This document shows, piece after piece, positions 56,813 to 60,753 of a stretch of 64,000 bases of DNA. Source of the stretch: Pseudomonas sp. Marseille-Q3773 (GTDB taxonomy: Bacteria; Pseudomonadota; Gammaproteobacteria; Pseudomonadales; Pseudomonadaceae); the NCBI RefSeq assembly GCF_916618955.1, contig NZ_OU745390.1, positions 3,968,001-4,032,000 on the forward strand, written 5' to 3'. Position 1 is the first letter of the stretch. The number at the start of each line of letters is the position of its first letter. The notes under the pieces were generated by a model. It was not told the origin of the DNA. It saw nothing but the letters and a program-made list of their open reading frames with translations, and ran no database searches. A program made the position numbers and the translations under genes.

Positions 56813-56828
56813 TGGCATGCAATTTGCT
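56813..56828 (+). promoter_or_regulatory. Sigma-54 promoter of glnA
   Basis: The sequence tggcatgcaatttgct has GG-N10-GC spacing with strong -24 (tggca) and -12 (ttgct) boxes. It lies 100 bp upstream of glnA. Confidence 0.8.
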
Positions 56829-56927: not shown

Positions 56928-58334
56928 ATGTCGAAGTCGGTTCAACTCATCAAAGATCATGACGTCAAGTGGATTGATCTGCGTTTCACGGACACCAAAG
57001 GCACTCAGCACCACGTGACCATGCCGGCGCGTGATGCGCTGGACGACGACTTCTTCGAAGTCGGCAAGATGTTCGACGGTTCCTCCATCGCTGGCTGGAA
57101 AGGCATCGAAGCCTCCGACATGATCCTGATGCCGGTCGACGAAACTGCCGTCCTGGACCCGTTCACCGAAGAACCGACCCTGATCCTGACCTGCGACATC
57201 GTCGACCCGTCGAGCATGCAGGGCTACGACCGTGACCCACGCGCCATCGCCAAGCGCGCCGAAGAGTACCTGAAGAGCACCGGTATCGGTGACACCGTAT
57301 TCGCCGGCCCGGAGCCAGAGTTCTTCATCTTCGACGAAGTGAAGTTCCAGTCGGACATCTCCGGTTCGATGTTCAAGATCTTCTCCGAGCAAGGCTCGTG
57401 GATGACCGGCGCTGACATCGAAGGTGGCAACAAGGGCCACCGTCCAGGCGTGAAAGGCGGCTACTTCCCGGTTCCGCCGTTCGACCACGACCACGAAATT
57501 CGTACTGCCATGTGCAACGCACTGGAAGAAATGGGCCAGACCGTCGAAGTCCACCACCACGAAGTGGCGACTGCCGGCCAGAACGAAATCGGCGTCAAGT
57601 TCAACACCCTGGTGAAGAAGGCTGACGAAGTACAGGCCCTGAAATACGTGGTGCACAACGTTGCCGACGCGTACGGCCGTACCGCCACCTTCATGCCGAA
57701 GCCCCTGTACGGCGACAACGGCTCGGGCATGCACGTGCACATGTCGATCTGGAAAGACGGCAAGAACACCTTCGCTGGTGAAGGCTATGCCGGCCTGTCC
57801 GACACCGCCCTGTACTTCATCGGCGGTATCATCAAGCACGGCAAGGCCCTGAACGGCTTCACCAACCCGTCGACCAACTCCTACAAGCGTCTGGTCCCAG
57901 GCTTCGAAGCCCCGGTAATGCTGGCCTACTCCGCTCGCAACCGTTCCGCCTCGATCCGTATTCCTTACGTCGGCAGCCCGAAAGCCCGCCGTATCGAAGC
58001 ACGCTTCCCGGACCCATCGGCCAACCCGTACCTGGCCTTCGCGGCCCTGCTGATGGCCGGCCTGGACGGTATCCAGAACAAGATCCACCCAGGCGATGCC
58101 GCCGACAAGAACCTGTACGACCTGCCGCCTGAAGAGGCCAAGGACATCCCGCAGGTTTGCGGCAGCCTGAAGGAAGCCCTGGAAGAGCTGGACAAAGGCC
58201 GTGCGTTCCTGACCAAGGGCGGCGTGTTCTCCGATGACTTCATCGATGCCTTCATCGAACTGAAGAGCGAAGAAGAGATCAAGGTCCGCACCTTCGTCCA
58301 CCCGCTGGAATACGAGCTGTACTACAGCTGCTGA
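56928..58334 (+). CDS. glnA: Glutamine synthetase type I GlnA
   Basis: ATP-dependent glutamate plus ammonia to glutamine; central to nitrogen assimilation. 468 residues after a ggagg ribosome site. Signatures: [12 protein letters not shown], metal-site [11 protein letters not shown] region [16 protein letters not shown], and the adenylylation Tyr397 (counting Met) in NLYDLPPEE, implying control by GlnE. Activated through the upstream sigma-54/NtrC elements; the terminator follows 20 bp after the stop. Confidence 0.99.
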
Positions 58335-58353
58335 TCCGACAGAGTCTGATCAT

Positions 58354-58379
58354 AACGGCCTCCTTCGGGAGGCCGTTTT
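58354..58379 (+). terminator. Rho-independent terminator of glnA
   Basis: A 10-bp stem aacggcctcc / ggaggccgtt closed by a TTCG tetraloop and followed by tttt, 20 bp after the stop. Confidence 0.92.
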
Positions 58380-58491
58380 CGTTCCTTCGCTTTAATCGTT
58401 CTTTTTCCTACAAAGCAAAGGGATGCCACTGACAGTTCCCCGCAGTAACGACTCTCAAGGTAGACGTCCACTCATCAACGGACGCCATACC

Positions 58492-59403
58492 ATGCGCAAA
58501 TTCATACCCGCAGTACTGACCTTATCCGCCTTCCTCGTCGGCTGCAGCAACCAACCCGGAGCGGTACAGACGCAAGTGCTTCATCGTGCTACCGGCAGCT
58601 GGGACGGCGAGCCCTACACCCACTACCCGGATGGTGAGCCCGTGCTGTCACTGGTGAAAGTCAGCATTCCACCGAATACCACCCTCGACTGGCACTGCCA
58701 CCAAGCGCTCAACCTCGGTTATCTGAAAGAAGGCGAGCTGGAAGTGGAAACCCGCAGCGGCAAGCGAACGACATTGACGGCAGGCAACACCCTGGCTGAG
58801 CTGGTAGGCGAGGTGCACCGCGGCAGGACGACACGACAGGCTGCCACGGTGCTGGTCTTTCACGCCGCGAACGAGGAGCTGGCCTTTTCCACGCCGCAAG
58901 ACCAGTGCCCAGGGCAACGGCCGCCAGCTGACGGGCCGCTGGACATCCTGCTCGATGATATCGAGCATCGCCTGGCAAGCGCCGAATCCGTGGCACTGCA
59001 CAAATGGGATAAGGCTCAACCCGTGCAAGACAACAAGCGCGAGCTGCAGATCCTGAACGACGTGCGCAACAACGCGTGGCGCTACCAATTGCCAGCCGAA
59101 CGGGCAGCAGCTTTCTTCACCGACCAGATCGAAGCACACAAAATGATGCAGTACAGCTTTCTTAACCGCTGGCACAGTCAAGGCCGTACACCTGACACAC
59201 CTCGCCGGGACCTACAGCAGGAGCTACGCCCCGAACTGGACGCCCTGCAAGCCAGGCTACTGCAGCATCTGGCCAGCCTGCCCAGTGATACCGGTTCCGC
59301 TTGCAACCAACGGTTGGCGTCCTCGATCAACGAGCGCGGCTTGTCGCCATTGATGAAACAGGCCATGGTTCGTGCCACTGGCCAGCTGTGCGATCAGCAC
59401 TGA
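58492..59403 (+). CDS. Predicted lipoprotein fusing a cupin domain to an AroQ-gamma chorismate mutase
   Basis: 303 residues; the ATG at 58492 (MRKFIPAVLTLSAFLVGC) starts a signal peptide with lipobox LVGC (Cys18). Residues about 40-130 are a cupin: metal-ligand pattern H68-C-H70, E80/E82 in LKEGELEVE, and a second motif with H109 in EVHRGRTT. Residues about 150-300 match the secreted AroQ-gamma chorismate mutases. That match covers Arg160 (EHRLASAE), Lys171 (LHKWD), R183-E184 (DNKREL), Gln212-Glu214 (DQIEAHK), and C-terminal Cys271/Cys300, spaced as in the known disulfide of this class. The likely reaction is chorismate to prephenate outside the cytoplasm; the role of the cupin is unknown. 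It lies between glnA and ntrB. Confidence 0.82.
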   Translation: MRKFIPAVLTLSAFLVGCSNQPGAVQTQVLHRATGSWDGEPYTHYPDGEPVLSLVKVSIPPNTTLDWHCHQALNLGYLKEGELEVETRSGKRTTLTAGNTLAELVGEVHRGRTTRQAATVLVFHAANEELAFSTPQDQCPGQRPPADGPLDILLDDIEHRLASAESVALHKWDKAQPVQDNKRELQILNDVRNNAWRYQLPAERAAAFFTDQIEAHKMMQYSFLNRWHSQGRTPDTPRRDLQQELRPELDALQARLLQHLASLPSDTGSACNQRLASSINERGLSPLMKQAMVRATGQLCDQH

Positions 59404-59667
59404 AACCTCTATGCTCTAAATTGGTGCATTTAGCGGACCAACGCCCCTGAATGCACCCCAAAAAAGGACACAAGAAACGTTACACCAGAACATTCTGGTG
59501 CAGAATTGCGCCATTCTTGGCCTTTCTCGGCTAAATCCGCTTCTTTTCGGAGCCTTGGTTTGTTTCTTGCATTTGCTGCAGGAAGACTGGAATCAGCGGA
59601 TTCACTGCGCGGCCAATCATGCCCGCCCCACTGCCAGACAAGCGCCAAAAGAGGTCAACGACGCCTT
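59404..59667. promoter_or_regulatory. ntrBC upstream region with inverted repeats
   Basis: 264 bp without a gene. It contains an inverted repeat ggtgcatt (59423-59430) / aatgcacc (59450-59457) and a near-perfect 18-bp palindrome CACCAGAA-CA-TTCTGGTG (59483-59500). The halves resemble NtrC TGCACC/GGTGCA elements but with other spacing; the factor is not assigned. Confidence 0.5.
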
Positions 59668-60753
59668 ATGACCATCAGCGATGCACAGCACCGTCTGCTT
59701 CTGGACAACCTGACCACCGCCACGCTCCTGCTCAACGCCGAGCTGTGCCTGGAATACATGAATCCGGCTGCGGAAATGCTGCTGGCGGTCAGTGGGCAGC
59801 GCAGCCACGGGCAGTTCATCAGCGAGCTGTTCACCGAATCGAGCGAAGCTCTCAGCTCGCTGCGCCAGGCAGTCGAGCAGGCGCATCCGTTCACCAAACG
59901 CGAGGCGCAGCTCACCTCGCTGACCGGGCAGACCATCACCGTCGACTACGCGGTAACGCCCATCCTGCACCAGGGCCAGACCTTGCTGCTGCTGGAGGTG
60001 CACCCGCGTGACCGGCTGCTGCGCATCACCAAGGAAGAAGCCCAGCTGAGCAAGCAGGAAACCACCAAGATGCTGGTGCGCGGCCTCGCCCACGAGATCA
60101 AGAACCCCCTCGGCGGCATTCGCGGCGCAGCCCAGCTGCTGGCGCGCGAGTTGCCCGAGGAAGGCCTGCGCGACTACACCAACGTGATCATCGAGGAAGC
60201 CGACCGCCTGCGTAACCTGGTCGACCGCATGCTCGGCTCGAACAAGTTGCCGTCCCTGGCCATGACCAACATCCACGAAGTGTTGGAGCGGGTCTGCAGC
60301 CTGGTGGAAGCCGAAAGCCAGGGCTGCATCGCTTTGGTGCGCGATTACGACCCCAGCCTGCCGGACGTGCTGATCGATCGCGAACAGATGATCCAGGCCG
60401 TGCTCAACATCGTGCGCAACGCCATGCAGGCAATCAGTTCGCAGAATGAGCTGCGCCTGGGCCGCATCACCCTGCGCAGCCGAGCCCTGCGCCAGTTCAC
60501 CATCGGCCATGTGCGCCATCGCCTGGTGGCCCGCGTGGAGATCATCGACAACGGGCCCGGCATCCCTCCGGAACTGCAGGACACCCTCTTCTACCCCATG
60601 GTCAGCGGCCGCCCGGACGGTACCGGGCTGGGCCTGGCCATTACCCAGAACATCATCAGCCAGCACCAGGGCCTGATCGAGTGTGAAAGCCATGCAGGCC
60701 ACACCGCCTTCTCGATCTACCTGCCTCTGGAACAAGGAGCCACCGCCTCATGA
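59668..60753 (+). CDS. ntrB: Nitrogen regulation sensor kinase NtrB (GlnL)
   Basis: Cytoplasmic PII-controlled kinase/phosphatase for NtrC. The ATG at 59668 (MTISDAQHRLLLDNL) gives 361 residues, matching family length; the longer upstream frame is spurious. N-terminal PAS (about 10-120), H-box GLAHEIKNPLGGIRGAAQLLAREL (phospho-His in AHE), N-box (VLNIVRNAMQAI), and G boxes DNGPGIP and GTGLGLAI. Overlaps ntrC by 4 bp. Confidence 0.97.
   Translation: MTISDAQHRLLLDNLTTATLLLNAELCLEYMNPAAEMLLAVSGQRSHGQFISELFTESSEALSSLRQAVEQAHPFTKREAQLTSLTGQTITVDYAVTPILHQGQTLLLLEVHPRDRLLRITKEEAQLSKQETTKMLVRGLAHEIKNPLGGIRGAAQLLARELPEEGLRDYTNVIIEEADRLRNLVDRMLGSNKLPSLAMTNIHEVLERVCSLVEAESQGCIALVRDYDPSLPDVLIDREQMIQAVLNIVRNAMQAISSQNELRLGRITLRSRALRQFTIGHVRHRLVARVEIIDNGPGIPPELQDTLFYPMVSGRPDGTGLGLAITQNIISQHQGLIECESHAGHTAFSIYLPLEQGATAS

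Follow-up and report, generated by a model that had tools for sequence, protein, structure and literature searches.

The closest described systems are the exported CM-CDT and CDT-CM enzymes, in which an exported AroQgamma chorismate mutase is fused to a second domain (PMC10520331). In the exported mutase fusions described so far, the partner is a dehydratase. The CM-CDT enzymes are active and have Lys and Gln in place of MtCM E106 and E109. PMC10520331 discusses why bacteria should export chorismate mutase at all, a question still open, and nowhere uses the word "cupin". Here, we examined a gene in a stretch of 64,000 nucleotides (the window) which joins such a mutase to a cupin. The window protein has several things in common with the CM-CDT and CDT-CM enzymes: the exported AroQgamma is joined to another domain, the residues aligned with MtCM E106 and E109 are likewise Lys and Gln, the fusion is rare, and a cytoplasmic route is also present. 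It differs from them in its partner domain, its lipid anchor and its C-terminal Cys pair, as well as in the occurrence of the cupin fusion in many Pseudomonas clusters. Profile searches revealed no cyclohexadienyl dehydratase domain match in the window protein, which sets it apart from the exported CM-CDT fusions. Monofunctional AroQgamma proteins (5ts9, 6cnz; TIGR01806) are matched by residues 150-303 over most of their length, whereas the window protein adds an N-terminal cupin with its own signal peptide. The features of the locus are as follows.

56928..58334, plus strand: glnA, upstream flank of a variable slot (ORF list, slot survey)
58354..58377, plus strand: hairpin followed by T-rich sequence, likely the glnA terminator (read by eye; the terminator scan did not report the hairpin)
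58492..59403, plus strand: gene of the cupin-AroQgamma fusion, 303 aa and a stop codon (ORF and domain matches)
58492..58545, plus strand: lipoprotein signal peptide with lipobox LVGC and Cys18 (sequence; 25 of the 28 aligned fusions have Cys here)
58573..58881, plus strand: cupin domain, approximately residues 28-130, with H68, H70, N74, E103 and H109 (domain match and alignment)
58696..58698, plus strand: codon of Cys69, inside W-H-C-H, co-occurring with Cys139 (cupin sequence comparison)
58906..58908, plus strand: codon of Cys139, in the C-terminal tail of the cupin (cupin sequence comparison)
58939..59400, plus strand: chorismate mutase domain of the AroQgamma type (residues 150-303, including C271/C300; profile and PDB matches, alignment)
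59668..60753, plus strand: ntrB, downstream flank of the slot (ORF list, slot survey)

The original prediction of a lipoprotein gene between glnA and ntrB agrees with the lipobox L-V-G-C18 and with both flanking genes lying on the strand of the fusion gene. The ATG at 58492 was taken as the start since homologues align from there, although an alternative in-frame ATG exists at 58423. With E-values far beyond chance for its domain matches, and with an export signal, Cupin_2 and AroQgamma domains all present, the predicted product conforms to the exported two-domain protein that had been proposed. A protein with 97% identity is annotated as 'gamma subclass chorismate mutase AroQ' in Pseudomonas sp. 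SMV7. The two-domain architecture recurs in 27 further protein clusters, and partially in one more (P0002), among 49 proteins listed after scoring of the best 8000 candidates. Among exported chorismate mutase fusions it is a real variant that recurs. In agreement with the earlier remark that no standard cupin fusion is known, no published description of a cupin-AroQgamma fusion was found in a literature search to which subscription papers were mostly inaccessible.

The mutase half matched TIGR01806 (gamma subclass AroQ) over residues 150-260 with 98.9 bits (E 1.9e-28), above the curated cut-off of 74.15, and CM_2 over residues 153-221 with 31.9 bits (cut-off 27). The equivalog cut-off of PRK09269 was missed (151.5 bits vs 158), and the best PDB relative was chorismate mutase 5ts9 (E 6.2e-28, residues 155-300). 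The proposed AroQgamma identity is thereby upheld, and the half is predicted to be an active chorismate mutase of this class. Site residues were transferred by alignment with the solved CDT-CM enzyme 8cq4 and the residue statements in PMC10520331. The predicted site comprises R160, K171, V178, D180, R183, I187, H216, K217, Q220 and R246, corresponding in this order to R49, K60, I67, D69, R72, Q76, T105, E106, E109 and R134 of MtCM. By this alignment, R160, K171, D180, R183 and R246 are identical to MtCM, V178 replaces Ile67, and I187, H216, K217 and Q220 deviate, with K217 and Q220 matching the Lys and Gln of the active CM-CDT enzymes. R160, K171, R183, Q220 and R246 were kept in all 28 aligned fusions and K217 in 27; position 180 is Asp in only 12. 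As for the signature residues originally named, the alignment puts R160, K171 and R183 at active-site positions of the solved enzymes, while Q212 and E214 are conserved but lie outside the site as transferred. The C-terminal Cys pair pointed out at the same time is C271/C300, a putative disulfide kept in 27 of 28 fusions.

In the cupin half, Cupin_2 matched residues 57-121 with 28.8 bits (cut-off 27.2), and matches to solved cupins were weak, at the level of cupins in general. This holds for the KdgF-type pectin degradation protein 5fpz (E 0.0035) and for BacB 3h7j (E 0.021), neither of which indicates membership; nor does the (R)-mandelonitrile lyase model NF049940, to which the first cupin row scored 17.3 bits against a cut-off of 140. 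The substrate of BacB is a compound derived from prephenate. The subfamily of the fusion's cupin also includes exported cupins that stand alone in Pseudomonas and Betaproteobacteria (alignment A2). These share W-H-x-H and E-x5-H but have no mutase domain, and the ones from Pseudomonas carry a lipobox. Canonical cupin motif 1 carries a Glu metal ligand. In the fusions its position is occupied by Asn (23 of 28; Asn74 in the window protein), Ser (4) or Thr (1), while H68, H70, E103 and H109 are kept in 28/28. Thus, of the cupin residues first proposed, H68-x-H70 and H109 hold, whereas the motif-1 Glu is Asn74 and the invariant Glu is E103. From this pattern we infer that the barrel could bind a metal through three His and the Asn.

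Two cysteines set some of these cupins apart. Among 194 distinct cupin sequences, restricted to those with W-H-x-H, 20 carry Cys69 together with Cys139, 174 carry neither, and 13 of the 20 are fusions; as this count ignores kinship, the pairing may reflect one or few evolutionary events. The co-occurrence suggests a Cys69-Cys139 disulfide. It could tie the linker to the barrel, which would suit a cupin that is a binding or regulatory domain and no enzyme, sensing a ligand and tuning or positioning the mutase. The AraC ligand-binding profile is touched as well, at 0.0093 (below cut-off) by the window protein and at best at 2.5e-07 among 4 of 11 cupin rows. We nevertheless regard such a role as improbable, for the putative metal ligands are invariant in 28/28 fusions, beyond what a scaffold needs, and cupin-less mutases are common.

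To see where the two halves occur, 298 Pseudomonas genomes were searched with a cupin profile at E 1e-20; 54 of them had a hit, with 56 places in all. Between glnA and ntrB, the variable slot held the mutase or the cupin by itself, the two as neighbouring genes (in both orders), or the fusion. Six of the 56 cupin places were fused; on the same strand and at most 3 kb away, AroQgamma lay upstream of 11 and downstream of 12, and 27 had none within 3 kb. As many as 46 of the 56 followed glnA on its strand at a distance of up to 5 kb, and 30 of the 44 AroQgamma places over cut-off in the cupin genomes also lay near glnA. The adjacency of cupin and mutase in Pseudomonas may reflect no more than one shared slot. 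At the level of whole genomes the association was weak (AroQgamma in 43/54 cupin-bearing vs 156/244 cupin-less genomes, p 0.026, kinship ignored), a cupin-less genome being scored positive on any match at E 1e-3 with the fusion protein as query, and coverage of the mutase part being seen only among the matches listed. No AroQgamma over the family cut-off was found in 11 of the 54 cupin-bearing genomes, and each half has been lost separately in relatives of the fusion; in view of both, the new extracytoplasmic aromatic pathway that was originally envisaged is at most a hypothesis. Outside Pseudomonas, none of the fetched flanks of 24 cupin loci (among the 80 kept from 188 scan loci) contained AroQgamma, and no common partner was apparent in 13 loci whose neighbours were read by eye. 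In a class-wide sample, the TIGR01806 cut-off was passed by the own genome only (1/274). Of 30 rows assigned to the glnA slot, one (L070) was assigned wrongly, on the strength of NtrB/NtrC matches of 25-29%. One genome, G022, has three places of this cupin family (contigs C12, C16 and C31), one of them in the glnA slot.

These distributions give weight to an explanation in which two exported lipoprotein genes were joined by a deletion behind glnA without any shared chemistry, the cupin serving as an anchor and having an unrelated job. The crowding of both families near glnA, the near-equal occurrence of both neighbour orders (11 and 12), the separate losses and the cupins standing alone elsewhere are all in its favour, and we hold it to be a genuine possibility, if not a probable one. 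What it explains less readily is the history of the fusion. In the mutase tree (92 rows), one clade (99/95) held the 21 fused rows and 20 others, either unfused or without a known place. The cupin tree (106 rows) likewise had the 21 fused rows in one clade (98/97), along with three unfused ones. In both trees some rows represent the same protein from two sources. P0146-P0159 and P0163 postdate the main trees; nine of these 15 were placed later, and P0147, P0150-P0153 and P0156 are in no tree. Losses are documented on either side: in the close relative G057, the cupin gene (L039, 4776-5219, minus strand) passes directly into the final codons of the mutase, read out of frame, with everything before them deleted, and by its sequence this gene is a former fusion that lost its mutase half; in P0021 both cupin ends are kept, while the cupin core is missing.

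One protein, P0163 from a metagenome, stands apart. It has a cupin followed by an exported mutase, in the same order, with neither lipobox nor C-terminal Cys pair. Its cupin clusters (99/90) with cupins that stand alone in other Gammaproteobacteria and lie outside the glnA slot; the mutase part branches apart from the mutases of Pseudomonas, although the branches are long. A single fusion for all, with P0163 placed within the Pseudomonas fusion clade, was rejected (p-AU 4.8e-14), while for P0159 such a placement, and with it a single fusion, was not (p 0.34); the groupings used in these topology tests were defined with the tree already at hand. A separate one-fusion test (p 6e-60) was discarded, as three nested unfused rows had been left out. 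P0163 comes from one 7368-base contig with three member sequences and might be a chimera, and no similar fusion was found in a second genome among 369, 4 and 4 genomes. Judged from these placements, P0163 is probably an independent second cupin-mutase fusion, and this argues against a chance joining behind glnA. The persistence of the fused form in many clusters argues in the same direction, and so does selection: in six pairs of fused genes, dN/dS was estimated at 0.11-0.24 in the cupin and 0.12-0.43 in the mutase (rough values, as synonymous distances above 1 occur in several cases and the domain limits are approximate in all genes but that of the window), i.e. both domains are under purifying selection in the fused state. 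Because of the adjacency at 23 of 56 cupin places and the apparent second independent fusion, a functional link between the two halves is supported.

Our preferred reading, to which we assign a probability of roughly 45%, is that of a lipid-anchored exported protein whose two domains would both work on one small-molecule pool. The lipid anchor would hold the protein outside the cytoplasm, the AroQgamma half would convert periplasmic chorismate to prephenate, and the cupin half, a barrel with a presumed metal site, would act on the same pool. Its substrate would most simply be prephenate or a derivative, making the cupin a second exported step. In favour of this reading are the conserved putative site and ligand residues, purifying selection on both domains, the repeated pairing in Pseudomonas, the probable second fusion, and the prephenate-using partners described below. 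Against it stand the many cupin places and the cupin-bearing genomes without AroQgamma, the weak genome-level association, the flanks outside Pseudomonas, the separate losses, the possible effect of a shared slot, the variable position 180 and the single-contig origin of P0163. As a second, unrelated partner of the mutase, often encoded by a neighbouring gene and probably joined to it in more than one event, the cupin is a concrete candidate for the fate of exported prephenate.

Exported dehydratases provide the context for this suggestion. A CM-CDT fusion from genome G314 provided its dehydratase part as query for cyclohexadienyl dehydratase (E 1e-30). A match was found in 170 of 298 Pseudomonas genomes, namely in 160/199 AroQgamma-positive vs 10/99 negative ones (p 5e-33, kinship ignored; AroQgamma scored as above). 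The source of the query (L196, 565-1959, minus strand) encodes a CM-CDT type fusion of 464 aa in another gammaproteobacterium. Genome G132 encodes a dehydratase-like exported protein (33% identity, E 2e-34) close to AroQgamma, with both genes on one strand (L134, 3155-3922 and 4884-5462, minus strand). From the co-occurrence of mutase and dehydratase and from the neighbours in G132, it follows that prephenate-using partners are usual for an exported mutase. In Pseudomonas, exported prephenate would thus usually have an exported consumer, and the fusion's lineage is without the known one: the dehydratase was matched in none of the six fusion genomes. In the own genome, where 9 of 24 first-look candidates were scored, no G[GT]TN, which we take to be a motif for recognising cyclohexadienyl dehydratase, was seen in 30 of the 33 SBP_bac_3 places; the motif was afterwards seen in L196 and L134.

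It is tempting to see the cupin as a substitute for the dehydratase. However, all six mutase-alone genomes of the fusion's mutase clade (G065, G072, G089, G091, G142 and G277) are likewise without it, and 21 of the 23 genomes with neighbouring cupin and mutase genes have it. Substitution was therefore rejected as an explanation; since mutase-alone relatives miss the dehydratase too, its absence is a lineage trait and no proof of substitution. In a stronger version of the preferred reading, the cupin would be a new prephenate-processing enzyme (a metal lyase or isomerase), giving dehydratase-less pseudomonads a two-step periplasmic pathway fused at least twice; this we consider unlikely.

Finally, we examined how the fusion gene might be expressed. 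Given the hairpin with its T-rich tail 3' of glnA, the gene is probably a transcription unit of its own, separate from glnA. No sigma-70-like site was detected in 58200-59760 and no sigma-54-like site (up to 2 mismatches) between glnA and the fusion gene, and nitrogen control of the latter was rejected, as the gap contains no NtrC-type box (up to 3 mismatches); consequently, no promoter can be named for it. Before ntrB, a terminator-like inverted repeat is located on the minus strand at 59481-59502, one of 2 such sites against 2.1 expected. In the window, sigma-54-like sites were not enriched (17 observed vs 26.9 expected), while NtrC-like palindromes (up to 3 mismatches) were found at 17 places vs 5.4 expected from shuffles. 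One sigma-54-like site, at 56813-56828 with a single mismatch, lies about 100 bases 5' of glnA.
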